Below, one piece after another: positions 588 to 17,472 of a DNA stretch of 64,000 nt. The notes beneath the pieces are model-generated. The model saw only the letters and a list, made by a program, of their open reading frames with translations, searched no databases and was not told the origin of the DNA. Both the position numbers and the translations under genes were made by a program. The stretch's first letter is position 1; every line of letters starts with the position of its first letter. The stretch is from positions 3,447,722 to 3,511,721 of the forward strand of contig NZ_FNUC01000004.1 of assembly GCF_900106035.1 (NCBI RefSeq), written 5' to 3'. The DNA comes from Jiangella alba (GTDB taxonomy: Bacteria; Actinomycetota; Actinomycetes; Jiangellales; Jiangellaceae).

Positions 588-1024
588 TTCGACCCTCCAG
601 TGGGACCAGTCGTGCGGCCGACGCCTCGAGTGGCGACGGCCGTCAGTTCGATGAGCATTCCGGGCACCAGGAGATCCGCGCGCACTGTCGTGACCGCGGG
701 CTGCGGATCCTTCAGGAACTCCTGACGCACCTCGACGAACACCGGCAGATCCTCGGGGCGTTGGAGATACACCGTCTGCGACACGATGCCGTCGAGAGAC
801 CCACCGGCGCGTTCCAGGACCGTGCGCAGGTTCGCGTACGTCGCACGGATCTGCGCGGCCGGGTCGCCCGGCGCGATCAGGTCACCCTGGTCGTCGAACG
901 GACCTTGGCCGGCAGTGAAGATCAACGGGCCGTTGGTCGTGACGGATTCCGAGTACGCGACGGTGCTCGACCACGGGTGGGCCTCGCGATCGCCGTAGCA
1001 GTAGAGGTCTCGAGCCACACTCAT
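584..1024 (-). CDS. RidA/YjgF family imine/enamine deaminase
   Basis: The protein has 146 residues from the ATG at 1024, which overlaps the oxidase stop (ATGA); the open frame extends further but that part is unsupported. It shows the RidA fold signatures GPLIFTAGQGPFD near the start, QIRATYANLRTVLERAGGSLDGIV in the middle and the C-terminal VRADLLVPGMLIELTAVA strand, whose Arg and Glu are the usual active-site residues. RidA proteins hydrolyse reactive enamines and imines to ketones plus ammonia. Next to an FAD amine oxidase, which makes imines, that role fits very well. Confidence 0.88.
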   Translation of the reverse strand: MSVARDLYCYGDREAHPWSSTVAYSESVTTNGPLIFTAGQGPFDDQGDLIAPGDPAAQIRATYANLRTVLERAGGSLDGIVSQTVYLQRPEDLPVFVEVRQEFLKDPQPAVTTVRADLLVPGMLIELTAVATRGVGRTTGPTGGSK

Positions 1025-2331: not shown

Positions 2332-3404
2332 CAGGCCTCCTGGACGGTGCGGGTGGGCACGCCGGTCCGGTTCGTCCGGGGGATCACGTGCAGGTCGTCA
2401 GGGTCGACCTCGACGCGGACCCGGTCGCCGGCGCCGAGCGAGAAGCCCAGTGCGGTGGACGTCAAGGTGAGGGCGACGGCGGGGTCGGCCTCCAGTCGCA
2501 CCCGCAGGCGATGGTGCGCGCCCTGGAAGCTCACGCTGTCGATGGTTCCCTCAGCACTCAGCCCCGACGGGTCCCGTTGATCGATCGGCCGAATCCGCAG
2601 CTGCTCGGGGCGCAGCACCGCGGTCCCGTCCGGAAGGCTGCCGCATCGCCCGAAGCACTGCATCGAGCCCTCGCGCACCTCGAGCAGGTTGGCCTCGCCG
2701 AGGAACCGCGCGACGAACTCGGAGGCCGGACGCCTGTACACGTCCTCCGGCGAGCCGCATTGCTCGATCCGCCCGTCGCTCATGACGGCGACCTTGTCCG
2801 CCATGGTCAGGGCCTCGACCTGGTCGTGGGTGACCGCCACGGTCGTGATGCCGAGGCGCCGCTGCAGGGCGCGGATCTCCAGCTGCATCGAGTCACGCAA
2901 CCGCTTGTCGAGCGCGGCCAGTGGTTCGTCCAGGAGCAACAGCCGCGGCTCGAAGACCACCGCGCGCGCCAGCGCGACCCGTTGTCGCTGCCCGCCGCTC
3001 AGTGCCGTGACACCTCGGTCGCCGTAGCCTTCCAGGCCGACCAGCCGCAGCACCTCCTCCACCCGCTCCCGGCGGCGGTCGCGGGGAACACCCCGGCGGC
3101 GCAGCGGGAACTCGATGTTCTTCCCGACGGTGAGGTGCGGGAACAGGGCGTAGCTCTGGAACACGATGCCGATGTCGCGGACGTACGGCGCAACCCCCGT
3201 GACATCGGCGGAGTCGAAGGTGACCAGTCCGGCGTCGGGTCGAGTGAACCCGGCGAGCACGTTGAGCGTGGTGGTCTTCCCGGAGCCGGACGGCCCGAGC
3301 AGCGCGACGAACGTCCCGGGTTCGATCTCCAGGTTCAGGTGGTCGAGTGCTTGGACCGATCCCAGGCGGACACTGACATCCTTCAGATTCGCTTGGACGC
3401 TCAC
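2331..3404 (-). CDS. polyamine-type ABC transporter ATP-binding protein (PotA-like)
   Basis: A 357-residue ATPase starting at a GTG (3404) that overlaps the permease stop (GTGA). It has Walker A GPSGSGKTTT, the Q-loop, signature LSGGQRQRVALARA, Walker B LLLLDEPLAALD and switch VAVTHDQ. A C-terminal TOBE-like region of about 110 residues (LRPEQLRIRP onward) follows, as in PotA/PotG. The length matches that family. The open frame runs upstream to 4052, but that part only shadows the permease gene. It energises the two permeases encoded just upstream. Confidence 0.92.
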   Translation of the reverse strand: MSVQANLKDVSVRLGSVQALDHLNLEIEPGTFVALLGPSGSGKTTTLNVLAGFTRPDAGLVTFDSADVTGVAPYVRDIGIVFQSYALFPHLTVGKNIEFPLRRRGVPRDRRRERVEEVLRLVGLEGYGDRGVTALSGGQRQRVALARAVVFEPRLLLLDEPLAALDKRLRDSMQLEIRALQRRLGITTVAVTHDQVEALTMADKVAVMSDGRIEQCGSPEDVYRRPASEFVARFLGEANLLEVREGSMQCFGRCGSLPDGTAVLRPEQLRIRPIDQRDPSGLSAEGTIDSVSFQGAHHRLRVRLEADPAVALTLTSTALGFSLGAGDRVRVEVDPDDLHVIPRTNRTGVPTRTVQEA

Positions 3405-4228
3405 GACGGCTTCCTCTTCATCAGCACGTTGACCAGGACGAGTAGCGCGGCGACCGTGACGGCCATGGCGATGACGACCATGCTCGCGGCCGCGATGGTC
3501 GGATCGGCCGATTCCCGGGTGGAGCCGAGGATCACGACCGGCAAGGTGCCTGCGCCGGGCGGGAGCAGGAAGTACGCCACGACGATCTCGTCGAACGACA
3601 TCGCCAGCGCGATCAGGCCGCCGGCCGCCACCGCCGGCTTCAGCAGCGGCAGCTCGACGAGCGTGAGCACCTTCCGGGCCGAGGCGCCGAGGCTGGATGC
3701 CGCGAGCGGCAACTGGTGGTCGCGGTTGGCCAGCGCCGCGCCGACCGTCACGAAGACCATCGGCGCCGAGAGCATCGCCTGTCCCACGATGACCGGCAGC
3801 AGCGAGCCGGTCGCGTCGAATCGCTGGGCGACGTCGTAGAGGCCGAGCGCGTACGTGACGATCGGGAGCACGAGCGGCGCGATGAACAGCGTCTGCAGGA
3901 CCCGGCGCCAGCGCCGGGCGTAGGCCAGGCCGAGTGCGCCCAGGGTTCCGACGACGGTCGCGATGACCGCCGCTGGCACGGCGATCCGCAGCGATGCGAG
4001 CAAGGAGTCGACCCACACGGGCGACGTGAAGAACGCGTCGAACCACTGCCACGACGCGAGGTCGGGCGGCCAGGTCAGCACGTGGTCGCGCGTGATCGAG
4101 ATCGGGAAGACGATCAGCAGCGGGATCAGCAGGAAGACGAGGACGATGACCGCGACGGCATGGATCGCCCAGCGCAGTCGGCCGAGACCCTGCGCCAGCG
4201 ACGACCGCAGCTCGTACTGGGAGCTCAT
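3401..4228 (-). CDS. ABC transporter permease, PotC-like
   Basis: A 275-residue inner-membrane permease with about six hydrophobic helices. The first is AVIVLVFLLIPLLIVF, preceded by an Arg-rich cytoplasmic start. The EAA-type loop (ASSLGASARKVLTLVELPLLKPAVAAG) contacts the ATPase, and the IVVAYFLLPPG segment is typical of PotC/PotI. The ATG at 4228 overlaps the stop of the partner permease (ATGA). With the PotB-like protein it should form the heterodimeric channel of an amine importer. Confidence 0.88.
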   Translation of the reverse strand: MSSQYELRSSLAQGLGRLRWAIHAVAVIVLVFLLIPLLIVFPISITRDHVLTWPPDLASWQWFDAFFTSPVWVDSLLASLRIAVPAAVIATVVGTLGALGLAYARRWRRVLQTLFIAPLVLPIVTYALGLYDVAQRFDATGSLLPVIVGQAMLSAPMVFVTVGAALANRDHQLPLAASSLGASARKVLTLVELPLLKPAVAAGGLIALAMSFDEIVVAYFLLPPGAGTLPVVILGSTRESADPTIAAASMVVIAMAVTVAALLVLVNVLMKRKPS

Positions 4229-5130
4229 CAGGACCTGAACCCCCTCGGCACCAGACTCACGAACCGGTCGATCACCAGGTAGATGGCGAGCACGAACACC
4301 AGCAGGACCAGTCCCATGACCGACGCGCCGGCAAGATCGAACTGCTGGTTGAACTGGCGATCGATCAGCGTCGCGATGGTCAGCTGCTGCGGCCCGCCGA
4401 TCAGCAGCGGCGTCACGTAGAACGCCAGCGACAGCAGGAACACCAACGAGCACGCGCCGGCGACAGCGGGGCGAAGCGCGGGCAGGACCACCAGCCACAA
4501 CAGCCGCGCGGGTCCGGCCCCCAGGCTCTGACCCGCTCGAAGGTCCTCGGAGCGCAGATCGAGGCACGCCGCGTACACCGGAAGCACGAAGTACGGCAGC
4601 ATCACGTGGATCATCGCCGGATACATCGCCGTCGTCGTCTGCAGCAGCCCGCCGGTCGAGTCGGTCAGCCCCATCGAGACCAGCAGCTGGCTCAGCGCTC
4701 CATTCGGCTGGAACACGATGACCCAGCCGAAGGTGCGCACCAGCAGCGAGATCCAGAACGACGCGAGCAGGCCCAGCAACAGCACCTTTCCGATCGACGG
4801 CGGTGCGGTGACCAGCGCCAGGGCGTAGATCGTTCCCAGCACCAGGCAGCAGGCCGTGACGACGGTGGACAGCAGCAGGGTGCGGACGGATGCGTCGATG
4901 AACACATCGCTCGACATCACCTGCGTGAACCCGTTCAGCCCGTCATCGGAGAGGGCCCGGCCGGTCAGTGAGACCAGCGGCAACACCAGGAACAGGAGCG
5001 CGGCACCGAGCGGGATGGCCAGCAACGCGGACACGCGAACCCGGGTGGGCTCGTCGTGGCGCGCAGGCAGGACACGCCGCACCGCACGCGCGGGCGAGCC
5101 GGCTGTCGCCGGCAGGGCTGGGCGGCTCAC
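4228..5130 (-). CDS. ABC transporter permease, PotB-like
   Basis: A 300-residue permease from a GTG at 5130 that overlaps the binding-protein stop (GTGA). An Arg-rich N-terminus is followed by LLAIPLGAALLFLVLPLVSL and five more hydrophobic segments. The EAA loop reads DLRAGQSLGAGPARLLWLVVLPALRPAVAGA. The size and order (binding protein, PotB-like, PotC-like, ATPase) match spermidine/putrescine and related POPT importers. Confidence 0.88.
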   Translation of the reverse strand: MSRPALPATAGSPARAVRRVLPARHDEPTRVRVSALLAIPLGAALLFLVLPLVSLTGRALSDDGLNGFTQVMSSDVFIDASVRTLLLSTVVTACCLVLGTIYALALVTAPPSIGKVLLLGLLASFWISLLVRTFGWVIVFQPNGALSQLLVSMGLTDSTGGLLQTTTAMYPAMIHVMLPYFVLPVYAACLDLRSEDLRAGQSLGAGPARLLWLVVLPALRPAVAGACSLVFLLSLAFYVTPLLIGGPQQLTIATLIDRQFNQQFDLAGASVMGLVLLVFVLAIYLVIDRFVSLVPRGFRS

Positions 5131-6197
5131 TCGCCGGCCGCCCACTCCAGGTAGCGCTGGTTGTATTCATCCATGTCGGCGCCCAGCCCAGCGCCGTCGA
5201 TCTCGCACGACACGTCGAGGTGGCTGTTCGGGAGATCCTGGACGACGTCGTCGTCGAGGTGTTCCAGCGCCTCCGAGTTCATCGGGCCGTACCGGGTCAT
5301 CTCGGCGAACGCCGCCTGGGCCTCGGGATCGGCCATCTGGTCGATCAGCGCCATCGCCGCGTCCTCGTGCTGGGCGAACTTGGGCACGGCCGGTGTCGTC
5401 CAGCTGTAGAGCCCGCCCTCCCACTGGAAGGCGACGGGCGAGCCCTGATCGCGAAGCGCGCTGATGCGGCCGTTCGGGGTGATCGTCATGGCGACGCTGT
5501 CCTGAGCCAGGTACTGCATCGCCTGCCCGAAGCTGTCGTAGAAGAGCACGTCGTCGCGGATCTCGTCGAGCTTGTCGAAGGCCCGGTCGAAGTCCAGCGG
5601 GTACAGGTCCTCACACGCCACGCCGTCGGCCAGAAGTGCGGCCTCGGCCTGGAAGTACGCGAACGACGGCAAGGCGCGCTGCCCCGGGAACCGGTCGGTG
5701 TCGAAGAAGTCCGCCCACCCTCGGGGCTCGTCGCCCGAGTCGGTCCGGTAGCCGATCCCGGTGCTGGCGTTGTAGCCGCCCGAGGCGTACTCCTGGAACT
5801 CCTCGGGCACCATGTCCGAGGCCGCGACGTCATCGCTGAGCGGTTCGAGCAGGCCCTGCTCGGCGAATCGGTACAGATCCCAGTTGTCGAGATCGATCAG
5901 ATCCCATTCCGCCCGCTCGTTCTCGACGAACAACGAGAGCTTCGACGGCGCCGCGTCCGCACTGACCGTGCGCACGCCGAACTCGTCGGCGAAGGGAGTC
6001 AGGAACGCCTCCTGGCGCGCCTCCCGGGTCGTCCCGCCGTAGTCCGCGACCACCACGGTGTCGGACTCCAGGCCGCCGTTCGTGGCTTCGGCGCCTGAAC
6101 ACGCCACGAGCAGCACAGCCGCGGATGCCACCACGGCCGGGCGCACCATCACGGTCCGCGCTGAACGTCGGTCGGTATTCGTCCGCGTGAGAGTCAT
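5127..6197 (-). CDS. extracellular solute-binding lipoprotein, PotD-like
   Basis: A 356-residue binding protein. The chosen ATG (6197) is preceded by GGGAGG about eight bases upstream and gives a clear lipoprotein signal with lipobox LVAC at Cys33; an open frame continues upstream but spans the promoter. The mature part (TVVVADYGGTTREARQEAFLTPF, then SGGYNASTGIGYRTD and PNGRISAL) follows the PotD/PotF-like periplasmic fold for amines and related compounds. It is the first gene of the seven-gene operon, and the amine oxidase downstream supports an amine ligand. Confidence 0.88.
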   Translation of the reverse strand: MTLTRTNTDRRSARTVMVRPAVVASAAVLLVACSGAEATNGGLESDTVVVADYGGTTREARQEAFLTPFADEFGVRTVSADAAPSKLSLFVENERAEWDLIDLDNWDLYRFAEQGLLEPLSDDVAASDMVPEEFQEYASGGYNASTGIGYRTDSGDEPRGWADFFDTDRFPGQRALPSFAYFQAEAALLADGVACEDLYPLDFDRAFDKLDEIRDDVLFYDSFGQAMQYLAQDSVAMTITPNGRISALRDQGSPVAFQWEGGLYSWTTPAVPKFAQHEDAAMALIDQMADPEAQAAFAEMTRYGPMNSEALEHLDDDVVQDLPNSHLDVSCEIDGAGLGADMDEYNQRYLEWAAGE

Positions 6198-6292
6198 CCT
6201 TGGCCTCCCTGGTGTTCGCCATCGCTTGGACCGCATCGCGAACGCATCCGCGTGATCAGCCCGGCATTCGATCCCTACCCGCTGAGTGCACG

Positions 6293-6320
6293 AGGCTACC
6301 CAGATTGAATCCAATGTCAA
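6293..6320 (-). promoter_or_regulatory. promoter of the amine import/oxidation operon
   Basis: On the minus strand a perfect -35 hexamer TTGACA (6320-6315) is followed by a 16-base spacer and TAGCCT (6298-6293), a TAnnnT-type -10 common in actinomycetes. It lies about 95 bases upstream of the binding-protein ATG at 6197. The spacer contains the dyad ATTGAATCCAAT, so a bound repressor would block polymerase. Confidence 0.65.
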
Positions 6321-6388
6321 CACCTAGCCGCAGCTGACGTGCTAGTGTCGCAGCATTGGACGCCAGTTCGCCAGGTTTGGGATCCAAT
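6304..6388. promoter_or_regulatory. repeated ATTGGAT-type operator sites
   Basis: The half-site ATTGGAY occurs three times: within the dyad ATTGAATCCAAT (6304-6315) in the promoter spacer, at 6355-6361 (inverted; part of the near-dyad TTGGACGCCAG), and within the dyad TTGGGATCCAA (6377-6387). Repeats positioned this way are typical of a dedicated repressor. The GntR-type gene at the left edge is the nearest candidate; that assignment is inference. Confidence 0.5.
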
Positions 6389-6433: not shown

Positions 6434-7261
6434 CTAGCGGGGCGGGGTGAACTCGGCGACGGCGCCGAAGGAGGCGCGCCGGGAGGCGCGGCGGAACGTC
6501 GCCAGCAGTGCGGGACCGACCAGCAGGATCGCGACGGTGTTGGTGACGGCCCGGCCGGTGTCCCAGCCAGCGGTGGACGTCAGCAGCGTGAACACGACGA
6601 AGCGGTGCAGGTTCTCGGCCACCGGGGCGCCGGGGACGTAGGAGATGGAGCCGTCGTGGTAGTCGACCTCGGCGCCGGCGATGAACGGCCAGAACCACAG
6701 GTTCATCAGGAAGCCGAACCCGTACGCGGCGACGATCCCGTACCCGGCCAGCATCGCGATCTCCGCGCGCCCGGTGACGCGGCGGGGCAGCAGCCCGGCG
6801 CCCAGGCCGATCCACGCCGAGGTCAGCATCTGGAACGGCAGCCACGGCCCGACCCCGGCCGTGAGCAGCGCCGACGCGAACAGTGACGTGCAGCCGAGCA
6901 CGAACCCGAAGCCCGGCCCGAACACCCGCCCGGCCAGCACCAGCAGGAAGAACACCGTCTCGATGCCGGCGGTCCCGGCGCCGAGCGGGCGCAGCGCGGC
7001 GTTCACGGCGGACAGCACGCCGAGCATCGCCAGCGCCTTGGAGTCCATGCCGCCCTCGGTCAGCTCGGCCAGCACGATCCCGACCAGCACCGGGAGCACG
7101 GCGAGGAAGACCCAGGGGGCGTCGACGCCGTGCTGCAGGGGGTCCGGCTCGACGGAGGTGAACAGCGGCCAGCAGAACATCGCCAGCCCGGCCAGCGACG
7201 CGAGCGCCAGCACCACCGCCGACCGCGGCCCGACCCGCAGCGCGTGCACGTCCGGGGTCAT
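6434..7261 (-). CDS. ECF transporter S component (probable corrinoid)
   Basis: A 275-residue membrane protein with about six helices. The ATG at 7261 overlaps the ATPase stop (ATGA). The segment SAVNAALRPLGAGTAGIETVFF and the following VFGPGFGFVLGCTSLFASALLTAGVGPWLPFQM are typical of actinobacterial S components, where the conserved GFxLG and GxGPWxPFQM stretches shape the substrate pocket. It is encoded with EcfT and fused EcfA below a cobalamin riboswitch. A cobalamin or precursor ligand is therefore inferred from context, not from binding-site residues. Confidence 0.85.
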   Translation of the reverse strand: MTPDVHALRVGPRSAVVLALASLAGLAMFCWPLFTSVEPDPLQHGVDAPWVFLAVLPVLVGIVLAELTEGGMDSKALAMLGVLSAVNAALRPLGAGTAGIETVFFLLVLAGRVFGPGFGFVLGCTSLFASALLTAGVGPWLPFQMLTSAWIGLGAGLLPRRVTGRAEIAMLAGYGIVAAYGFGFLMNLWFWPFIAGAEVDYHDGSISYVPGAPVAENLHRFVVFTLLTSTAGWDTGRAVTNTVAILLVGPALLATFRRASRRASFGAVAEFTPPR

Positions 7262-8859
7262 GGCGCCTCCCGCAGCGCGGACCGGACGGCGCCGACGGTG
7301 AGCCAGCCGGCCCCGAGCACCTTCGCCACCTGCGGCGCGAACGCGGGCGAGGCGCCGATCACCTCGGCCGCCGGCCCGTCGGCGACGACGTCGCCCTCGG
7401 CCATGACGACGACGCGGTCGGCGGCGACGGCGGCGAACTCGACGTCGTGGGTGGCGACGACGACGGCGTGCCCGTCCGCCGCGAGGCCGGTGACGATCCG
7501 CGCGAGCCGCGCCTTCGCGCCGTAGTCGAGGCCGCGGGTGGGCTCGTCCAGCAGCACGACACCGGGCGCGGCGGTGAGCTGGATCGCCAGCACCAGCCCG
7601 AGCCGCTGGCCCTCGGAGAGGTCGCGCGGGTGCGCCGCCGGGTCGATCCCGGGAGCGATGCGCTCGAGCAGGTCGCGGCAGGTCCCGGGCGGCGAGCCGG
7701 ACTCGGCGTCGGCGGCCCGGCACTCGGCGCCGACGGTGGTGAGGTACAGCAGGTCGGTCGCCGTCTGCGGCACCAGGCCGACCAGAGTGCGGCCGCCGGC
7801 GGCGGGCAGTGTCGCCGGGTCGGCGCCGCCCACCCGCACCGTCCCGCCGGACCGCGGCCCGGACCCCTGCAGCGCCCACAGCAGCGACGACTTCCCGGAC
7901 CCGTTCCGGCCCATCAGCGCCGTCACCGTCCCGGCGGCGAGGGCGAGGTCGACGCCGCGGACCGCGACGACGTCGCCGTAGCGGACGACGACGGACGACG
8001 CCGTCAGCGCGGCCGCGGCCGGCTCGACATGGCGGGGCGGCGGCGGCTCGGGCAGCCGAGCCAGCACCGGACCGGCCAGGCGGCGGGCGTCCCGCACCGA
8101 CAACGGCAGCGGGTCCCAGCCGGCCAGCCGGCCGAGCTCGACGACCGGCGGCACGACCAGTGAGCCGGCGACCACGGCGGCCGGCGGCCCGGACACCACC
8201 GTGCTGTCGCCGGGCAGCACGACCAGCCGGTCGGCGTACTGCAGCACCCGCTCCATCCGGTGCTCCGCGACGACGACGGTGACGCCGAGGTCGTGCACCA
8301 GCCGGGTGATCGCCGCCAGCGCGTCCTCGGCCGCGGCCGGATCCAGCGCGGACGTCGGCTCGTCCAGCACCAGCACGGACGGGTTCGCCGCCAGCACCGC
8401 GCCGATCGCGACCCGCTGCTGCTGGCCGCCGGACAGCGTCCGCAGCGGCCGGTAGCGCAACTCGGCGATGCCGAGCAGGTCCAGCGTCTCCTCGACCCGC
8501 TTGCGCATGACCGGCGCCGGGACGGCCAGCTGCTCCATGCCGTAGGCGAGCTCCTCCTCGACGGTGTCGGTGACGAACCCGGCCAGCGGGTCCTGCCCGA
8601 CCATGCCGACGACGTGGGCGAACTCGCGCGGCGGCGCGGTGCGGGTGTCGACGCCCCCCACCGTGACGCGGCCGGCCAGGTGCCCGCCGGTGAAGTGCGG
8701 CACCAGCCCGTTGACGGCACGCAGCAGCGTGGACTTGCCGCTGCCGGTGCGGCCGGCGACCAGCACGAGCTCGCCCGGTGTGACGGTGAGGTCGACGTCG
8801 CGCAGCACCGGCGCCGCCGCTCCCGCGTACGTGACGCTGACCTGCTCGAAGATGATCAC
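7258..8859 (-). CDS. ECF transporter fused double ATPase (EcfA-EcfA')
   Basis: A 533-residue protein with two complete ABC domains in one chain. Domain 1 has GRTGSGKSTLL, LSGGQQQRVAIG and VLVLDEPTSALD. Domain 2 has GRNGSGKSSLL, LSEGQRLGLVLA and VVLLDEPTRGLD. The second signature is degenerate (LSEGQ), as often seen in asymmetric ECF ATPase pairs. A GTG at 8859 overlapping the EcfT stop (GTGA) is the natural start; the longer open frame upstream only shadows EcfT. Confidence 0.92.
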   Translation of the reverse strand: MIIFEQVSVTYAGAAAPVLRDVDLTVTPGELVLVAGRTGSGKSTLLRAVNGLVPHFTGGHLAGRVTVGGVDTRTAPPREFAHVVGMVGQDPLAGFVTDTVEEELAYGMEQLAVPAPVMRKRVEETLDLLGIAELRYRPLRTLSGGQQQRVAIGAVLAANPSVLVLDEPTSALDPAAAEDALAAITRLVHDLGVTVVVAEHRMERVLQYADRLVVLPGDSTVVSGPPAAVVAGSLVVPPVVELGRLAGWDPLPLSVRDARRLAGPVLARLPEPPPPRHVEPAAAALTASSVVVRYGDVVAVRGVDLALAAGTVTALMGRNGSGKSSLLWALQGSGPRSGGTVRVGGADPATLPAAGGRTLVGLVPQTATDLLYLTTVGAECRAADAESGSPPGTCRDLLERIAPGIDPAAHPRDLSEGQRLGLVLAIQLTAAPGVVLLDEPTRGLDYGAKARLARIVTGLAADGHAVVVATHDVEFAAVAADRVVVMAEGDVVADGPAAEVIGASPAFAPQVAKVLGAGWLTVGAVRSALREAP

Positions 8860-9998
8860 GACACCGTCTCCTTCACCCGGAGGTCCGCCTGGACGGGTGC
8901 GGCCGGCAGCGACGGCGCCGGCGGCGGCGTCAGCCAGGCCGGCAGCGCTCCCGCCAGCACGCCCAGCACGACGTACGGCGACAGCTGCGGCCAGCTCAGC
9001 GGCTTGAGCGTGGGGTTGATGTTGGCCGGATCGATGCTGCTGGTGAGGTACAGCACGACGCCGACGGCGACGCCGGACCCGGCGGCGACCAGTTCGGCGA
9101 GGCGCCACCGGTCCGGCCGGTAGCGGGTGCGCCGCACGCGCCGGCCGGTGACGACGAACCCGGCGCCGGCCACCGCGATCCCGGCCAGCAGCATCGGCAC
9201 GCCGAGCGTGCGCGGCGCGCTGCCGTCGAGCACGCCGTAGACGCCGACGCACACCCCGATCAGCCCGAGGATCGTCAGCGTGCCGGTGAGCAGCCGGACC
9301 CCGCGCGGAGTGTCGCCGGACCGGCCGTAGCCGCGCGCGTCCATCGCCGCGGCCAGCTGCAGCGACCGGTCCAGCGCGTCCTCCAGCACCGGCACGACGA
9401 TGCCGTGCAGCGCCCGCCGCCCGGATCCGGCGCCGCCGCGCAGCCGCCGGGCCCGGCGCACCCGCTGCACGCTCTCGGTCAGCTGCGGGAACACCGACAA
9501 CGCGACGACGACGGCGCTCCCGACCTCGTAGAGCGCGCCGGGCACGGCCTTGAGCAGCCGCTTCGGGTTGGCCAGCGCGTTGGCGGCGCCGAGGCAGACC
9601 ACCATCGTCGCCAGCCGCAGCCCGTCGTAGAACCCGCCGAGCAGCGACTCCAACGAGACCGGGCCGAACAGCCGGATCCCGGCGGCCCACGGCGGCAGCG
9701 GGATCTCCGGCAGCGTGACCAGCACCGTCGGCCCCTCGCCGCCGCCGAAGATCACCCGGTACGCCACGCGCATGACCACGATGAACCCGCCGAGGATCAG
9801 GTACAGCCGGAACGCCAGCGCCCACGGCGCGTCGCCGCGCCGGGCCACCACGACGAACCCGGCGACCGCCAGGATCAGCCCCAGCGTCAGCGGGTTCGTC
9901 GTGCGGCTGGCCGCGGCCGCCAGCCCGAGCGCCCAGATCCACCAGGCGCCCGGGTGCAGGCTGCGCGGCAGCCAGTAGGCGGCCCAGCGGGTCCTCAC
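8856..9998 (-). CDS. ECF transporter T component (EcfT)
   Basis: A 380-residue membrane protein. It has hydrophobic helices near the start (WWIWALGLAAAA and LTLGLILAVAGFVVV), a long cytoplasmic helical region rich in Arg (VQRVRRARRLRGG) and the coupling motif AAAMDARGYGRSG, the A-R-G box that docks on the ATPases. The GTG start at 9998 overlaps the preceding stop (GTGA). The C-terminal part is longer than in minimal EcfT proteins and adds several extra helices and a proline-rich tail. Confidence 0.9.
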   Translation of the reverse strand: MRTRWAAYWLPRSLHPGAWWIWALGLAAAASRTTNPLTLGLILAVAGFVVVARRGDAPWALAFRLYLILGGFIVVMRVAYRVIFGGGEGPTVLVTLPEIPLPPWAAGIRLFGPVSLESLLGGFYDGLRLATMVVCLGAANALANPKRLLKAVPGALYEVGSAVVVALSVFPQLTESVQRVRRARRLRGGAGSGRRALHGIVVPVLEDALDRSLQLAAAMDARGYGRSGDTPRGVRLLTGTLTILGLIGVCVGVYGVLDGSAPRTLGVPMLLAGIAVAGAGFVVTGRRVRRTRYRPDRWRLAELVAAGSGVAVGVVLYLTSSIDPANINPTLKPLSWPQLSPYVVLGVLAGALPAWLTPPPAPSLPAAPVQADLRVKETVS

Positions 9999-11014
9999 GT
10001 AGCGGAGCTCCGGCGTCGCCGAGCGGTGACGACGGCGGCCGCCGCGACCGCGATCCCGGCCGCCACGGCGATCAAGGTGGCGACCGGCACACCGCCGACC
10101 TCCGCGCCGCTGGCCACGGGTGCGGCGGACTCCTCGCCGCCGGTCCAGGTGGGCTGCTCGGACGGCGTCGCGGCCGGGGTGGCCGGCCGGCCCGGCACGG
10201 GCGGGGCCACGGACTCGCGGGGGAGCGGCGGCGGGAGCACGCCGTCGGCGGTCCCGTCCCCGGTGGTCCCGCCCTCGGCCGCGCCGCCGCCGTCCTCCGC
10301 GCCGCCGTCAGCGCCGCTGCCGGCGCCGCCGCCCGTTCCGCCGTCGGCGCTTCCGGACCCGCCACCCTCGGTGCCGCCGGGCCGCGGCGCGTTGTTGCCG
10401 CCACCCCCGCCGGGCGCCTGCTCGTCCGGGTCGTCGCTGGTGGGACGGGGTTGCGGGTCCTGCTGCGGCGGCTGGTCCGGCGGGTCGTCCGGGCGGACCG
10501 GGGCGATGCGCGGCGCCGGGTTCGACGCCGCGGTCGCGTTGAGCGAGAACGACCAGCCCTCGAAGCCGCCCGGGATCGCGTCGCGGTTCTTGACGCCCCA
10601 CTGGCTGTACTCCCAGGTCCCGCCGTTGGGCGCGTGCCAGTACGACCAGTAGGCGGCGGCCGGCGGTGTGTCGATGCAGGCCTCGACGTAGCCCCCGTTG
10701 CCCGTCACCGGGACCTGCTCGCCCGGCCCTGGGCGGCCCTCGACGCGGCAGATGAACGCCTCGCCCCAGCGGCGCACGCCCTCGATCTCGATGCCGGCGT
10801 CGTAGAGCGCGTCCAGCCCGGTGAAGCCGGGGCCGGCGGGCCCGGGTGCGCACCGGACGATCGTGGTGCCGCCAAGCGCCTGGAAGTCGATGACCACGGT
10901 GACGCCGCGGTCGTCCGGGCAGAAGCCGGGGCTGCCGCTGCCCGGGTCGACGGCGCTCGCGGGCGCGGCCGTGGCGAGCAGGACGGCGACTGTCAGCAGG
11001 GCCCGGCGGATCAT
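9995..11014 (-). CDS. secreted, membrane-anchored transcobalamin-beta-like protein
   Basis: A 339-residue protein with signal peptide (1-22, cleavage near PASA-VD), one globular domain (about 28-165), a long Pro/Gly-rich low-complexity linker and a C-terminal membrane helix followed by RRRR. The globular domain (VTVVIDFQALGG, LDALYDAG, WGEAFICRVEGRP, AAYWSYWH, GGFEGWSF) resembles the DUF4430-like beta domain of transcobalamins in motif order. The same domain heads the giant protein encoded just upstream. Its ATG overlaps that gene's stop. It is probably a surface corrinoid-capture or handover factor; this is inference from context and fold motifs. Confidence 0.7.
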   Translation of the reverse strand: MIRRALLTVAVLLATAAPASAVDPGSGSPGFCPDDRGVTVVIDFQALGGTTIVRCAPGPAGPGFTGLDALYDAGIEIEGVRRWGEAFICRVEGRPGPGEQVPVTGNGGYVEACIDTPPAAAYWSYWHAPNGGTWEYSQWGVKNRDAIPGGFEGWSFSLNATAASNPAPRIAPVRPDDPPDQPPQQDPQPRPTSDDPDEQAPGGGGGNNAPRPGGTEGGGSGSADGGTGGGAGSGADGGAEDGGGAAEGGTTGDGTADGVLPPPLPRESVAPPVPGRPATPAATPSEQPTWTGGEESAAPVASGAEVGGVPVATLIAVAAGIAVAAAAVVTARRRRSSAT

Positions 11015-14000
11015 GCGGCCGCGCCCCGGCGCCGGGTCGTGATCAGCCAGCCGAGCAGCACGCCGACGACGACCAGCGCGGCGCCGCCGCCGGCCGCGAC
11101 CGGCCACGGGACGTCGTCGCCGTCCCCCGGCACCGGCACGACGTCGCCGGACCGGTCGTCGGAGGCCGGCGCGGCCGCGGGGGCGAGGTCGAGCTGCCCG
11201 GCCGGACGTTCGACCGCGGGCCGCAGCAGGCCGGACGGCAGCGTCAGCAGCGAGCCGCCGGCCAGCACCGGCAGCGCCCGGGCGGTCGCGGCGACATCGC
11301 TCGGGTCGCCGGCCCGTGGCGGCAGCCCGCCGTCGCCGGACCGCACCGACTCCAGCCAGAGCCGGGTCGCGCTGACGTCCATCCCGGCGGAGAGCAGGCC
11401 GGTCGCGGCGCTGCCGGTGGCCGGGACGCTGCAGTCGCCGTCGCGGACCCAGGCGCCGTCGGCCCCGCACGCCTCGGCCAGCGCCCGGACCGCCGTCGTC
11501 AGCGCCGCGCCGCGGGTCTCGGTCAGCTGCGCGACCCGGCCGTCGCCGGGCGCCGCGTTGAGCGCCTGCAGCACGACGCCGCTGACCTCCGGCGATCCGG
11601 CGGCGCAGCCCTCCTCGCCGGGGATCCGCTCCGGGAACAGGCCGTCGACGCACTGGGCGGCGGCCAGCACCTCGGCGCCCGCGGCCGCGGCCGGCTGCTC
11701 TCCGGCGGCGGTCAGCGCGAGCACGGCCATCGCCTGGTCCTCGACGCCGACGTGGTCGCCCAGCCCGCTGACGTCGGCGAACCGGCCGGACTCGTCCTGC
11801 AGCGCCAGCAGCTCGGCGGCGAGGTCGGTCCCGCCGGCGGCGTGCGGGTCGGCGCCGGTCAGGGCGGCCAGCAGGACGAGGTCGGCCAGCGGGCCGGCGT
11901 ACCGGGCGGCGGTCTCGTACGGCTCGCCGTGCGCGTACCCGGCGACCGCGTCCGGGCCGAGCAGGAACGCCGTCACCGCCGGGTCCGGTGCGCCGGCCTG
12001 CAGCAGCGCGAGCGCCACGTCCGCCGTCAGCGCGTAGTCGACGTACGTGGCGCCGTCGACGGTGGTGAGCACGTGCGTGCCGCCGGTCAGCAGCCCGGTC
12101 AGATAGGCGACCGCGGCGTCGGCGGCCGAGGCGCCGGGGGTGGGTGACGCCGACGGCGTCGAGCTCGGCGCGGGGGCGGCGCCGCCCGGCCCGCCGGCGC
12201 CGCCGCCGGACCCGTCGGCCTGCGGGCCGGGCGCCGGAGGACGCGGCCCGGCACCGGCCGGTGGCCGGGGGAGCGGCGGGTCGGTGGCCGGCGGCGGGCT
12301 CGGCGCCGGCGTCGGCCGGTCGGACGGGGTCGGCCTCGGGGTGGGGCGATCGGTCGGCGTCGGGGTCGGCGTCGACGTCCGGGTGGGTGTGGGCGTCGGC
12401 TTCGGGGTCGGCGTCGGCGACGGGCCGGGGTCGAGGTCGTCCTTGCCGAGGTCGGCGAACGACACCGGCGCCAGCGCGAAGATCGCCTGCGCCGTCGCCC
12501 GGCGCCACTGGTCGCGACCCAGGCCCATGCCGCCGCTCAGCCCGTCGGCCAGCGACTGCGGGTTGTAGGCGATCGCGCCGACCTCGGCCAGCAGCGCCGA
12601 CCCGGCCGCGTTGTCGGCGGTGACCTGCAGCCCGCCGACCCACGCCGCGGCCGCCTCGTAAGCGGCGTCGCGCTCGTCCGCGGCCAGTGCCTGGGCGACC
12701 AGGCCGGTGCTGTTGGTGTTCGGCGCCTCGGTGGACACGCCGCCGCCGAACGAGCCGTCGGCGCCCTGCACGTCCTCGAACCAGTCCAGCGCGCGGTCGA
12801 TGTCGTCGTCCAGACCGCGCACCCCGGCGTCGCGGGCGGTCATCAGCGCCTGCACGGCCATCGCGGTGCCGTCGCGGTCCGGGCTGCTCTGCCCGCTGTC
12901 GCAGGTCGTCCCGTCGTTGTAGAACATCCGGAACCAGCCCTCGGCGCACTGCTGCTTCAGCAGGAAGTCGACGGCCTCCTGCGGCACCCCGCCGGAGCGG
13001 GCCAGCCCGATCACGGCCAGCGACTGGCCGAAGATGTTGCTCGTGTCGTTGAGCGGGTAGTCCGGGTTGTGGTCCTTCAGCCGACCGTGCTCGACGCCGC
13101 CGGGGTCGTCGACCAGCAGGTCCAGCGTCTCCTGCCGCACGTCACGGCCGCCGAAGCGGGTCCAGTCGGACTCCGCGACCACGGCCGCCACCAGCACCTT
13201 CGCCGTCGCGCCGGCGATGCGGGTGTCCGGGTGCGGGTACCAGCCGGGGCCGGCGTACTCAGCGACGTTCGTCTCGACGGCCGCGGTGATCTGCTCCGCC
13301 GCGGTCTCGCCGACTCCGGCCGCGTGCAGCGCGAACAGCGCGTCGATCGTCAGGCCCCAGTCGTAGCCGAACCCGGGCCCGGGCAGCGCGCCGTCGTCCA
13401 GCTCGCCGATCAGCCACGACGCCGCCGCCTCGCCGCCGGGACCGTACGGGTTCTCCTCCCAGGTGACGGTGAGGGTGGCGGCGCCGGTGGCCGCCTCGCC
13501 GGACGCGTTCGTGAACACCGCGCGGTACCGCGCGCCGTTCTGCGCCGAGGTGACGCCGTCGACGGTGTAGGTCGTGCCGGTGGCCCAGGCGATGTCGGCC
13601 CACTCGCCGCCGGGCGCGCGGCTCTGCCAGCGCACTGTGGGCGCCGGTTCGCCGGCCGCGGCGGCGGTGAAGGTCGCGGCGCCGCCGGCCGCCACCGTCA
13701 GGTCGGCCGGGTGGGTGGTGACCTCCGGCGCCCGGCCCGGCTCGTCGACGGCGAACGTGGTGCTGCCGGTGCGCCCGGCCGTGGCCCCGGTGGCGGTGAC
13801 GGTGCTGGCGCCGGCGGTCCCGGCGGCGGCGAACTCGGCCCGGTAGGCCCCGTCCGCGCCGGCCTGGGCGTCCGCGGGGGCGACGCCGGCGCCGTCGACG
13901 TCGACGCTCACCTGCTCGTACGGCGCCAGGCCGGCGACGGTGACCGCCTGCGCCGCGCCCGGCGCGACGCTGTCCGCGTCGGCCGTGACGGTCAGCGTCG

Positions 14001-14598
14001 CCTCGGCCGGTAGCGCGTACGCCGGGACGCCGGGGAACGGGTTGGTCTCGGCGGTCGCGTCGTGCGAGAACGACCAGCCCTCGAAGCCGCCGGGCACCGC
14101 GTTGCGGTAGGTGACGCCCCCGCTGCTGTACGTCCACCCGTCCCACTCCGCGCCGCCGCCCTGGTGCCAGTACGACCAGTACGCGGCCGCCGGCGGGGTG
14201 TCCCGGCAGGGCTCCAGGTAGGCGGGGTCGCCGGGGATCGCGATCGGCTCGTCCGCCGCCGGCCGGCCCTGCAGCCGGCAGATGAACGCCTCGCCCCAGC
14301 GGTCCGTCCCGGCCACCTGGATGCCGGCGCCCTTCAGCGCGTCCAGCCCGGTGCCCTCGAACGGCTGACCCGGCACCGCCGGCGGCGCGCACCGGACCAC
14401 CAGCTCGCCGTCGTGGCCGCCGAACGCGCCGAGATCCTGGAAGTCGACCACGACGGTGACGCCCAGCCCGTCGGTGCAGTACCCGGCGTGCCCGGCCGGC
14501 TGCTGCTGCGCCGTCGCCGTCACGGGCGCCGAGGCGACGACGAGCAGAGCGGCGGCGGCGAGCCCGAGCGGCGGGCGGAGGCGGGAGAGCCGGACCAT
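11011..14598 (-). CDS. giant surface transcobalamin/intrinsic-factor-like protein
   Basis: A 1195-residue secreted protein. The order is: signal peptide (1-30); a beta-type domain (about 37-190) paralogous to the next gene's domain; two Ig-like domains (about 200-285 and 289-380); an alpha/alpha-barrel with prenyltransferase/intrinsic-factor-like repeats (about 385-715, for example DGTAMAVQALM, ADGSFGGG and NTNSTGLVAQAL); a Pro/Thr linker (723-825); a second alpha-barrel (826-1110); and a C-terminal membrane helix with an RRR stop. Human transcobalamin pairs the same two fold types. It is the first gene after the cobalamin riboswitch, so corrinoid capture is the likely role. The ATG at 14598 has an AAAGGG stretch upstream. 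Confidence 0.75.
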   Translation of the reverse strand: MVRLSRLRPPLGLAAAALLVVASAPVTATAQQQPAGHAGYCTDGLGVTVVVDFQDLGAFGGHDGELVVRCAPPAVPGQPFEGTGLDALKGAGIQVAGTDRWGEAFICRLQGRPAADEPIAIPGDPAYLEPCRDTPPAAAYWSYWHQGGGAEWDGWTYSSGGVTYRNAVPGGFEGWSFSHDATAETNPFPGVPAYALPAEATLTVTADADSVAPGAAQAVTVAGLAPYEQVSVDVDGAGVAPADAQAGADGAYRAEFAAAGTAGASTVTATGATAGRTGSTTFAVDEPGRAPEVTTHPADLTVAAGGAATFTAAAAGEPAPTVRWQSRAPGGEWADIAWATGTTYTVDGVTSAQNGARYRAVFTNASGEAATGAATLTVTWEENPYGPGGEAAASWLIGELDDGALPGPGFGYDWGLTIDALFALHAAGVGETAAEQITAAVETNVAEYAGPGWYPHPDTRIAGATAKVLVAAVVAESDWTRFGGRDVRQETLDLLVDDPGGVEHGRLKDHNPDYPLNDTSNIFGQSLAVIGLARSGGVPQEAVDFLLKQQCAEGWFRMFYNDGTTCDSGQSSPDRDGTAMAVQALMTARDAGVRGLDDDIDRALDWFEDVQGADGSFGGGVSTEAPNTNSTGLVAQALAADERDAAYEAAAAWVGGLQVTADNAAGSALLAEVGAIAYNPQSLADGLSGGMGLGRDQWRRATAQAIFALAPVSFADLGKDDLDPGPSPTPTPKPTPTPTRTSTPTPTPTDRPTPRPTPSDRPTPAPSPPPATDPPLPRPPAGAGPRPPAPGPQADGSGGGAGGPGGAAPAPSSTPSASPTPGASAADAAVAYLTGLLTGGTHVLTTVDGATYVDYALTADVALALLQAGAPDPAVTAFLLGPDAVAGYAHGEPYETAARYAGPLADLVLLAALTGADPHAAGGTDLAAELLALQDESGRFADVSGLGDHVGVEDQAMAVLALTAAGEQPAAAAGAEVLAAAQCVDGLFPERIPGEEGCAAGSPEVSGVVLQALNAAPGDGRVAQLTETRGAALTTAVRALAEACGADGAWVRDGDCSVPATGSAATGLLSAGMDVSATRLWLESVRSGDGGLPPRAGDPSDVAATARALPVLAGGSLLTLPSGLLRPAVERPAGQLDLAPAAAPASDDRSGDVVPVPGDGDDVPWPVAAGGGAALVVVGVLLGWLITTRRRGAAA

Positions 14599-14764
14599 GG
14601 CGGGACCCTTTCGGCGCTGCGGTCGCCGAACGCGAGACCCGTGCGCCGAGGACACCGCGCCGCCCCTGAGCGCGCGCCGCCGCGGCGGCGCAAGGCGTCA
14701 GGCGAGGGGCACGGACCCGAGCGGTCCGGGCTCCGCCCGTAGACCTCGACGGGTGTCGTGGAGC

Positions 14765-14880
14765 CACGCGCCCGGGCAGGCATTCCGGCTCGCAGCGGAT
14801 GTCCGCTGCCTACGGTTGCGGGTCAGCGCCGGCTTCGGACCGGCTTCCCCCACCTGGGTGCGAGTGCGCCGGCGCCCGCA
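14765..14880 (-). ncRNA. cobalamin (AdoCbl) riboswitch
   Basis: On the minus strand the conserved core is clear: GGGGGAAGCCGGTCCGAAGC, then GCTGACCCGCAACCGTAGGC, then the B12 box AGCCGGAATGCCTGCC (14790-14775). These match the consensus GGGAA, GCTG-CCCGCAACxGTA and AGCCxGGAnACCTGCC elements in order and spacing. Downstream lie a CGGACC/GGTCCG hairpin (about 14712-14729) and a GC-only palindrome GCGCCGCC-GC-GGCGGCGC (14674-14691), which could form the expression platform. High cobalamin should switch off the five-gene ECF operon that starts at 14598. The outer limits are approximate. Confidence 0.9.
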
Positions 14881-14973
14881 TGGACGGAAACCGGCATCCG
14901 GATCGTATCGGGACGATGCATCCACCGCCACGCGACATCCGTCACATGATCACCGGGGCTCGTTCGCTCGGGG

Positions 14974-17337
14974 TCACTGCTTGTACATGACGACGCGGAA
15001 GAAGTCGGCCGGTTCCAGGAGGTGATCGTGGGAGTCGTCGCCGGCCTCCATCTCGATCCATTTGATGGTGCCGGTGAAGGCGTTGTCGGCGGCCGGGTAG
15101 TCGTCGGTGACCGGCGAGAGGATGTCGCGGCCGACGTCGGTGGGTTCGTAGCCGAAACCGATGGGTTCGGTGCGCTCGACCCGCCCGGCGCCGACGGGCT
15201 GGTCGTCGACGAGCAGGGTGACCGCTCCGCCCTTGCCGAGGCCGCCGCCGTCGTAGCCGAACTCGACCCGCACGCGGTGTTCGCCGGCGGGGACCGCGGC
15301 GTCGGCGCGGATGTGGGTGCGGTCGATGCCGAACAGGTTGTAGCAGAAGGTCGGCACGGAGTCCTTGAGGTAGAAGGCCCAGCCGCCGCTATGGCCGCCG
15401 AGGTTCATCAGCACGCCGCCGGCGCCGGTGTCGGGCATGATCACGGTCGCGGTCAGCGACCACGACTTGTTGCGCCAGTTCACGACGTGCTGCTCGGTGA
15501 GTCCGCCCATGCCGGGGAAGAGCAGCTGCCGGTGGCCGATCAGCTCGGGCTTCTTGCTGTACTCGGGCAGCACGCGTTCGAAGGAGCGGTCGTCCAGCGG
15601 CAGGACGTTGTAGCGGGTGGCCTCGATCAGGAAGAGCCGCTGCAGCTCGTGCAGCTTGCCGGGGTTCTCGGCCGAGAGGTCCCTGGCCTGGGTCCAGTCG
15701 CTGGAGCCGTCGTAGAGCTCCCAGCTGTCGTCGTCGAAGGCGATGCCGACGTCGCCGGTGGTCTGCCACGGCGTGCGGTGCTTGGTGACCGCGGACCAGC
15801 CGCGGTGGTAGATCCCGCGGTTGCCGAAGATCTCGAAGTACTGCGTGTCGTGCCGTTCCGCCGCGTCGGCGTCGTCGAAGCAGTAGCGCATGCTGGTGCC
15901 GTGCAACGGCTGCTGGGTGATGCCGTGCACCTGGACGGGGTGCGGCAGGCCGGCGGCCTCGAGCACGGTGGGGGCGACGTCGATGACGTGGCTGAACTGG
16001 TGCCGCATCTCGCCCTCGGCCCGGATGCCACGGGGCCAGTGCACGATGGTGCCGTTGCGGGTGCCGCCCCAGTGCGAGGCGACCTGCTTGGTCCACTGGT
16101 ACGGCGTGCACATGGCGTGCGCCCACCCGACCGCGTAGTGCGGGGACGACTCCGGTCCGCCCAGCTTCTCCAGCTGCCCGGTGAGGAACTCGGGCGTCTC
16201 GATCCCGGCCATGCCGTTCAGGCTGATCAACTCGTTGAAGGTGCCGTTGATGGTGCCTTCGGCCGAGGCGCCGTTGTCGCCGATGATCAGGTAGACGAGG
16301 GTGTCCTCGAGCAGGCCGAGTTCCTCCAGCGAGTCGATGAGGCGGCCGACGTGGTGGTCGGTGTGCTCCAGGAACCCCGCGTAGTTCTCCATCTGGCGCC
16401 GCAGCACGGGCTTGAGCGCGTCGTCCATGTCCTCCCACGCGGGGATCACCTCGTGCCGCACGGTGAGTTCGGCGTCGGCGGGAACGACGCCGAGTTCCTT
16501 CTGCCGGGCGAAGGTGCGCTCGCGTTGGGCGTCCCAGCCGTCGTCGAACCTCCCGGCGTACTTGTCGGCCCACTCCTTGGGCACGTGGTGCGGAGCGTGC
16601 GTGGCGCCCGGCGCGAGGTAGAGGAGGAACGGCTTGTCCGGGACCAGCGCCTTCTGCGCCTCCACCCACGAGATGGCGTGGTCGACGAGGTCCTCCGTCA
16701 GGTGGTAGCCCTCCTCCGGCGTCCCCCACGGCTCGACCGGGCGGGTGCCCTCGACGAGGTTGGGGTAGTACTGATCGGTCTCGCCACCCAGGAACCCGTA
16801 GAAGTGCTCGAAGCCGTTCCCCGGCGACGGCCACCGGTCGAACGGTCCGGCCTGGCTCGTCTCCCACAGCGGCACCTCGTGGCACTTGCCGATGTGCGCG
16901 GTGGCGTAGCCGTTGAGCTTGAGGATCTCCGGCAGCGGCGCGCACGAGTTGGGGCGCATCGAGTTGTAGCCCGGAGCCGAGGTGGACATCTCGGTGATGC
17001 CGCCCATGCCCACGCTGTGGTGATTGCGGCCGCTGATCAGCGCGGCACGGGTCGGCGAGCAGATCGCGGTGGTGTGGAACCGGGTGAACCGCAGGCCGCC
17101 GGCGGCCAGCCGCTCGGCCACCGGCGTGTGCACCGGCCCGCCGAACACGCTGGAGGCGGCGAACCCGACGTCGTCGAGCAGGATCAGGAGCACGTTCGGC
17201 GCGCCCGCCGGTGGGCGCAGCTGCTCGATCGGGGCGAAGTCCGCCTCCGGATCCTTCGCGTCGTACCAGATCGTGCCCGCATACGCCTGGTCCGGAATCG
17301 GCAGCACCGACCGCTGCGCACGACGTTCATCGGACAT
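14974..17337 (-). CDS. type I arylsulfatase (AtsD-like)
   Basis: A 787-residue cytoplasm-type sulfatase, the same length class as mycobacterial AtsD. It has the metal site LLDDVGF (Asp55/Asp56) and the formylglycine motif CSPTRAALISG with Cys93 to be oxidised by a formylglycine-generating enzyme that is not in this window. Later come GDNGAS (metal) and an extra C-terminal beta domain of about 200 residues (from roughly 590) seen in this family. The ATG at 17337 has GGGAGGGG upstream; the longer open frame lacks a signal. It is monocistronic and hydrolyses a sulfate ester of unknown identity. Confidence 0.93.
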   Translation of the reverse strand: MSDERRAQRSVLPIPDQAYAGTIWYDAKDPEADFAPIEQLRPPAGAPNVLLILLDDVGFAASSVFGGPVHTPVAERLAAGGLRFTRFHTTAICSPTRAALISGRNHHSVGMGGITEMSTSAPGYNSMRPNSCAPLPEILKLNGYATAHIGKCHEVPLWETSQAGPFDRWPSPGNGFEHFYGFLGGETDQYYPNLVEGTRPVEPWGTPEEGYHLTEDLVDHAISWVEAQKALVPDKPFLLYLAPGATHAPHHVPKEWADKYAGRFDDGWDAQRERTFARQKELGVVPADAELTVRHEVIPAWEDMDDALKPVLRRQMENYAGFLEHTDHHVGRLIDSLEELGLLEDTLVYLIIGDNGASAEGTINGTFNELISLNGMAGIETPEFLTGQLEKLGGPESSPHYAVGWAHAMCTPYQWTKQVASHWGGTRNGTIVHWPRGIRAEGEMRHQFSHVIDVAPTVLEAAGLPHPVQVHGITQQPLHGTSMRYCFDDADAAERHDTQYFEIFGNRGIYHRGWSAVTKHRTPWQTTGDVGIAFDDDSWELYDGSSDWTQARDLSAENPGKLHELQRLFLIEATRYNVLPLDDRSFERVLPEYSKKPELIGHRQLLFPGMGGLTEQHVVNWRNKSWSLTATVIMPDTGAGGVLMNLGGHSGGWAFYLKDSVPTFCYNLFGIDRTHIRADAAVPAGEHRVRVEFGYDGGGLGKGGAVTLLVDDQPVGAGRVERTEPIGFGYEPTDVGRDILSPVTDDYPAADNAFTGTIKWIEMEAGDDSHDHLLEPADFFRVVMYKQ

Positions 17338-17472
17338 CCTGACACCCCTCCCGAGCCGGCCTCGTCGAGGCGCGCGAACCCCGTCGCCGCCCCCGCTCAG
17401 CCGACCGCGGTCACCGGCACGGCGCCTCACCCGACACAGGTGAACCGTCGTGGTGCGCACGGCACCGGGACC

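Follow-up and report, generated by a model that had tools for sequence, protein, structure and literature searches.

How does an actinomycete that probably cannot build the corrin ring obtain the corrinoids that it uses? The question is raised by an operon of Jiangella alba lying on the minus strand of a 64,000-nucleotide stretch of DNA (hereafter the window, in whose positions the operon's coordinates are given). A leader at 14755..14888 is followed by five genes, with a 4-base overlap at all four junctions; the first two encode predicted surface proteins and the last three an energy-coupling factor (ECF) transporter. We consider it likely that the operon is a riboswitch-controlled system for the scavenging and import of corrinoids (vitamin B12-type compounds). 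The riboswitch, the operon, the types of fold, the conservation across actinobacteria and a genome that holds B12-binding domains and none of the corrin-ring genes searched were all computed directly.

The leader is a cobalamin riboswitch of the compact actinobacterial form, with its core at 14765-14852. The match to Rfam family RF00174 (14888..14758, minus strand) exceeds the gathering score by a thin margin (32 bits against 31.5; E 2.4e-4). A covariance model built on 24 leaders taken from 22 related loci, with the window excluded (R2), gives the same leader 86.1 bits (E 2.5e-26), the runner-up within the 64 kb scoring 5.9 bits. Related loci here are the best 80 of at least 557 relatives from a search with the S component of the transporter; all have actinobacterial titles, and Streptomyces, Micromonospora, Amycolatopsis and Nocardioides are all represented. 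A further model (R1), made from 11 leaders of related loci with that of the window included, detects a leader ahead of the ECF genes at 66 of the 80 loci, eight of these 66 having fed the model. Of the other 14, as divided partly by hand, 11 run into a contig end and 3 have upstream sequence without a leader. When Rfam was applied to 14 related loci, RF00174 or RF01482 matched ahead of the surface-protein/ECF unit, on the plus strand, in eight (L005, L006, L013, L015, L032, L043, L051 and L054) and between the beta and toroid genes in L025; at L008, L014, L022, L023 and L031 the Rfam score at the leader position is below cut-off and the leader was found by the models built here. Across 89 aligned leaders, 95.7% of 1750 cells are paired, 284 cells are changed on both sides and 15 of 20 pairs show such double changes, with none of 500 shuffles reaching the observed values; the sequences are related and the alignment was fitted to the tested structure, which favours covariation. 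We claim no expression platform, because the leader folded together with the stretch down to the start codon is not clearly more stable than its shuffles (z -1.63; 7 of 100 shuffles as stable).

The last three genes supply a complete ECF transporter, every part having a Pfam match above cut-off: an EcfT of the CbiQ family (P0003, 380 amino acids, 8856..9998; PF02361, 39 bits), a fused EcfA-EcfA' with two ATPase domains (P0004, 533 amino acids, 7258..8859; two stretches of PF00005, ABC_tran) and an S component (P0005, 275 amino acids, 6434..7261; PF12822, ECF_trnsprt, 33.8 bits, cut-off 30.7). The EcfT also has an additional C-terminal membrane region that matches DUF1129 (PF06570, 30.4 bits, above cut-off). 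Cobalt importers, too, can be under the control of B12 riboswitches, and ECF systems for cobalt are well established among the targets of such switches. This background and the match of EcfT to CbiQ would both suit an operon that imports cobalt and not a corrinoid. We regard such a function as extremely unlikely. None of the five operon proteins has a Pfam match to CbiM or CbiN, and the S component, being a match to ECF_trnsprt, does not present itself as one of CbiM type. Moreover, no match to CobN or to CbiC/CobH was found in the genome, so that the organism would have little use for cobalt in building a corrin, and we know of no cobalt system in which toroid and DUF4430-like proteins take part.

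Such proteins are precisely what the first two genes appear to encode. Protein 1 (P0001, 1195 amino acids, 11011..14598) starts with a signal-like hydrophobic segment and continues with a beta domain (beta-1, residues ~40-180, 14059..14481) that resembles DUF4430 and the beta domain of transcobalamin by its AlphaFold model and by profile alignment. An Ig-like domain of the I-set type follows (residues 291-378, 13465..13728; PF07679, 26 bits, cut-off 23.7). The next domain, an alpha/alpha toroid (toroid 1, residues ~385-730, 12409..13446), is all-helical in the AlphaFold model and matches toroids in Foldseek and VIA searches. A second toroid (toroid 2, residues ~850-1140, 11179..12051) is suggested by an iterated profile started from residues 856-1140. 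A proline-rich linker and a hydrophobic segment with an arginine tail, the putative membrane anchor (residues 1163-1190, 11029..11112), complete the protein. Protein 2 (P0002, 339 amino acids, 9995..11014) has a signal-like N-terminus, a beta domain (beta-2, 10493..10936) that is 60% identical to beta-1 in alignment and belongs to the same iterated profile family, a low-complexity linker and a C-terminal membrane anchor. Judged by hydropathy, both proteins are predicted to be exported and membrane-anchored. The reading of the initial annotation, which had named a cobalamin riboswitch, five overlapping genes, a large protein with beta, Ig-like and two alpha-barrel domains, and a surface-anchored receptor beside an ECF importer, agrees with these results.

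The domains recur in numerous relatives. Iterated profiles started from beta-1 and from beta-2 each collect 104 matches in 70 loci, while those from toroid 1 and toroid 2 collect 102 in 60 loci and 101 in 59, respectively; in the MAFFT alignments of the toroid and beta families a few residues of noise remain. Pfam matches of the toroid are all under cut-off, and the beta domains of the window have no Pfam match. Two NCBIfam families, SCO2321_fam (NF053823) and SCO2322_fam (NF040672), come nearest to a name. The window proteins score far below their cut-offs: P0001 reaches 86.1 bits as a whole protein and toroid 1 alone 80.4 bits against SCO2321_fam (cut-off 300), and P0002 27.8 bits against SCO2322_fam (cut-off 85). 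The matches are shared by the relatives, SCO2321_fam being found at E <=0.001 in 59 of 60 toroids and SCO2322_fam in 40 of 62 beta domains. The NCBIfam descriptions of the two families name no function.

In animal transcobalamin and intrinsic factor, a toroid and a beta-grasp domain sandwich cobalamin between them. The likeness of the actinobacterial proteins to these carriers emerges from a natural toroid-beta fusion encoded in a related operon (L026), modelled with AlphaFold from 67 alignment rows (predicted local distance difference test score, pLDDT, 89.0; predicted template modelling score, pTM, 0.77). In a Foldseek search of 350,542 chains, ranks 1-6 were taken by transcobalamin or intrinsic factor (best 7qbg_C, E 3.2e-9), with further such chains at ranks 8-10, 12 and 13 (470-486 alignment columns). 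On the strength of this model, domain order and local folds match those of the animal carriers; that the domains adopt a closed arrangement is something that we infer. The model of the window protein itself covers residues 31-745 (58 alignment rows, mean pLDDT 78.0). Read by eye, its beta-1 has strands and a helix in a beta-grasp-like order, and by ten-residue blocks the pLDDT is 73-96 for the beta domain once its first block is left aside and 67-98, mostly above 90, for toroid 1; it is only 41-76 in the Ig region and below 50 in model residues 163-247, which precede it. The Pfam family Cobalamin_bind (PF01122) matches one of 60 toroids, at E 0.0039, and does not match toroid 1 of the window.

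DUF4430 has been placed at the C-terminus of transcobalamins (PMC4350170, in the text available from that article). Of 396 genomes of the phylum, 76 have a match to it, and 74 of these 76 lie outside the window's class; the J. alba genome has no Pfam match to it. Among the 62 beta domains of the operons, the Pfam model detects two at E <=1, the best being 0.12, and none above its cut-off. The two families nevertheless align when profiles are compared: hhalign, run with 30 DUF4430 domains of the phylum against the 62 beta domains, returns a probability of 80.9, an E of 1.3e-5 and a score of 36.5, against scores of at most 15.3 for 20 column-shuffled versions (one of which gave no alignment at all) and 10.6 for the toroid profile. 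Canonical DUF4430 proteins occur in other classes (L109-L138 and others), some of them encoded by open frames as long as 1000 to 2330 amino acids, and several genomes of these classes encode two or more of them close together.

The association of toroid and beta domains was followed in the 69 loci with readable upstream sequence, that is the 80 minus the 11 that run into a contig end (seven identified by script; L028, L038, L040 and L060 by hand). Within the fetched stretch, a beta domain is present in 67 of the 69 and a toroid in 56. The numbers of toroid and beta copies per locus correlate across the 69 (Spearman 0.69, uncorrected for kinship, with L016 counted as having two beta domains and not three, as two of its matches are halves of one domain). 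In eight of the 69, in addition to the window, a single open frame encodes both toroid and beta, in either order; L004 in this set is the window's own genome, and the shared frame of L057 may be two genes, having an anchor-like and a signal-like stretch between toroid and beta. Fusion and correlated copy number together argue that toroid and beta domains act together. Layouts also vary among the loci. The order toroid-toroid, beta, beta, ECF is found in L005-L013 and L016-L019 (Actinophytocola, Amycolatopsis, Asanoa, Actinokineospora and others); seven Micromonospora loci have two leader-toroid-beta units; in L031, L033, L037, L050 and L059, four of them titled Streptomyces, the order is leader-beta-ECF-toroid; and further loci have lone toroid or beta genes, each with its own leader. 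Toroid genes without an in-frame beta domain and with their own leader also lie beside the operon in L006, L007, L012 and L019 (~1600-3040, minus strand), as they do in L009 (16648-17849), L010 (10888-12067) and, on the minus strand, L017 (11464-12596) and L025 (10875-11995).

Several observations weigh against a corrinoid scavenging system. The Foldseek and VIA matches of the window model are mostly toroid enzymes, with terpene cyclases on top, and transcobalamin is not among the 50 Foldseek or the 50 VIA matches listed, an absence that carries little weight, since a single domain takes up the list. For L026, VIA puts cyclases first and has no transcobalamin among the 50 matches listed; compared with transcobalamin over both domains, this model, which was made without ligand, gives a root-mean-square deviation of about 23 Å, so that the relative orientation of its domains departs from that in the ligand-bound carriers. 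In sequence the toroids are nearest to terpene cyclases (squalene-hopene), with complement and macroglobulin toroids lower down and no transcobalamin among the 60 matches listed. No chain at E <=10 was found among PDB sequences with the beta profile or with a 29-row profile of the S component. The latter protein has a weak folate-type match and scores 23 bits, under the cut-off of 26.7, against PF07155 (ECF-ribofla_trS); of its 29 relatives, 24 match the riboflavin-type S family and 19 the general ECF_trnsprt, and its substrate cannot be read from the sequence. Finally, L047, L048 and L076 have upstream sequence and no leader, and 13 of the 69 loci have no toroid in the fetched stretch. As for the transcobalamin-like folds proposed in the initial annotation, the Foldseek ranks of L026 and the alignment of beta with DUF4430 speak for them, whereas the window's own model does not.

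One could read some of these data to mean that the toroids are enzymes sent out of the cell, whether terpene cyclases or enzymes acting on glycans: the best matches, in sequence and by VIA, are squalene-hopene and drimenyl cyclases, and VIA also lists sugar epimerases and GH76 enzymes. Alternatively, the operon might move some other small molecule under B12 control, such as another vitamin, as the riboflavin-type and general Pfam relatives of its S component would allow. We find both versions very unlikely. The motif DxDD, which we take to be the catalytic motif of cyclases, is absent from all 60 toroids: Asp192 is present in 60 of 60 and Thr194 in 59 of 60, and the residue following Asp192 is never Asp (A 24, S 20, T 8, G 6, V 1, Y 1). 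A cyclase role is unlikely because of this absence combined with the predicted export and anchoring. The export and anchor segments, and the linkage to beta domains and to a B12 leader, speak against enzymes and against another cargo alike.

A corrinoid as cargo fits the physiology that can be read from the genome (7.68 Mb in 4 contigs, completeness 100). Besides the missing CobN and CbiC/CobH, CobI/CbiL matches are below cut-off only, at three places that coincide with the matches to the CobA/CysG methyltransferase family; the search of corrin-ring genes covered these three. CobS, CobQ and five B12-binding domains are present. The genome thus probably cannot build the corrin ring, yet would use and remodel corrinoids, and since the three ring genes searched are not above cut-off and B12-binding domains are present, corrinoid import is probably needed. 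Retention of the late salvage genes CobQ (near another riboswitch) and CobS in the absence of the ring genes searched is compatible with uptake of corrinoid precursors or of cobamides other than B12 (cobinamide, cobyrate), instead of or alongside complete cobalamin, and the ECF importer CbrT carries both cobalamin and cobinamide (PMC5997447, in its available text). Our data do not separate these ligands. A mixed specificity seems likelier to us, and we rate the precursor alternative as possible though rather doubtful.

Four RF00174 sites, the operon leader among them, are above cut-off in this genome. At one (82.5 bits; contig C4, 1435838-1441044, L093), the riboswitch is followed by the alpha and beta genes of a class I ribonucleotide reductase and then by the manganese transporter MntH, which suggests that a manganese-using, B12-independent reductase would be made when B12 is short. 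Another (74.9 bits; contig C3, 3005617-3005855, L094) overlaps the upstream part of the frame of a GntR-type regulator. The remaining site (contig C4, 1155975-1162118, L095 and L107) lies ahead of a gene for a BtuF-like binding protein; CobQ follows at a distance of about 3 kb, and CobS is nearby. The BtuF-like protein has a Peripla_BP_2 match above cut-off and 71.7 bits against NCBIfam BtuF, for which the cut-off is 234; we assign it no ligand because the latter score is so far below. This locus may be a second candidate for corrinoid uptake or salvage. The initial remark that no BtuF-type lipoprotein was in sight therefore holds for the five operon genes, none of which has a Pfam match to a BtuF-type binding protein, and not for the genome, where a riboswitch-led BtuF-like protein exists. 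The flanks of the operon (1021-6323 and 14974-17460) look unrelated to it; one holds an ATP-binding cassette importer with a solute-binding protein beside an oxidase-like gene (oxidase and ATPase named by eye), and the other a sulfatase.

The scavenging system that we favour could then work as follows. When cobalamin is scarce, the riboswitch would permit expression of the operon. The two exported, membrane-anchored proteins, with their toroids and DUF4430-type beta-grasp domains, would together catch a corrinoid on the outer side of the membrane and hand it over to the S component; its transport into the cell would be driven by EcfT and the double EcfA. In this scheme we infer the corrinoid as ligand, the closure of toroid and beta around it and the hand-over to the S component. 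It is tempting to go a step further and suppose that in many actinomycetes, in which anchored toroid and beta-grasp proteins are separate, the two close on a corrinoid in trans and deliver it to a dedicated ECF S component. We offer this idea of a split transcobalamin tentatively, leaning slightly against it. Were it true, there would be an ECF importer with an obligatory extracellular receptor in two parts, and a counterpart of the human B12 carrier existing as halves. The scavenging system as such provides a concrete and widespread candidate for B12 uptake in actinomycetes, involving two protein families that have names and no function. Through it, the carriers of B12 in humans would gain relatives in actinobacteria, often occurring as halves, and it opens the way to testing directly whether an ECF transporter can rely on a receptor outside the cell.

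Animal transcobalamin and intrinsic factor are soluble carriers taken up by receptors. The L026 fusion shares with them the order of toroid then beta-grasp and has them as its top Foldseek matches. The proteins described here differ in being predicted to be membrane-anchored, beside an importer, and in having a putative ligand and a putative closure of the domains. Among ECF systems, ECF-CbrT of Lactobacillus delbrueckii has been studied experimentally as an importer of cobalamin and cobinamide. CbrT uses a group II module common to several S components, whereas the S component of the present operon has no PDB sequence match; as a statement on relation to CbrT, this result of the 29-row profile is qualified by the strong divergence of S components and by the presence of the CbrT chain in the set being unchecked. 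In acI actinobacteria, riboswitch-led ECF modules have been predicted to be cobalamin transporters in organisms where the B12 pathway was not found (PMC5301498, available text). They resemble our operon in being riboswitch-led, and the available text of that article does not mention a surface receptor.

In the open-licence PubMed Central literature searched, we found no experimental study of SCO2321, of SCO2322 or of the operon (SCO2321 does occur in the available text of an article on a skin-delivery peptide, PMC9237094), no answer as to the route of B12 uptake in Streptomyces, Micromonospora, Amycolatopsis or Nocardioides, and no description of the branch found in actinomycetes, of its divergent beta domain, of its units led by riboswitches or of its split form. 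The general architecture, in contrast, is on record. The initial annotation had supposed that large receptors beside ECF corrinoid systems were mostly undescribed; this has to be given up, as Burroughs et al. (2007; PMC1796856), in the text available to us, describe secreted proteins that combine SLBB and alpha/alpha toroid domains, sometimes with Ig domains and often with a second SLBB paralogue, from operons with CbiO and CbiQ, and propose B12 scavenging by bacteria that usually are without key enzymes of B12 synthesis. The points in common are an exported beta-grasp and toroid, an Ig domain, a paralogue and an operon with ECF ATPase and CbiQ. According to the same text, those systems belong to low-GC Gram-positives, planctomycetes and, less often, euryarchaea, whereas the present ones are from high-GC actinobacteria; the latter also differ in a beta domain that has diverged beyond the reach of Pfam DUF4430, in the riboswitch that leads most units, and in that toroid and beta are in many cases made as distinct proteins. 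We thus see in the J. alba operon the kind of system that was predicted in 2007, now in a widespread variant with its own actinomycete branch, a divergent beta domain, riboswitch-led units and a split form.

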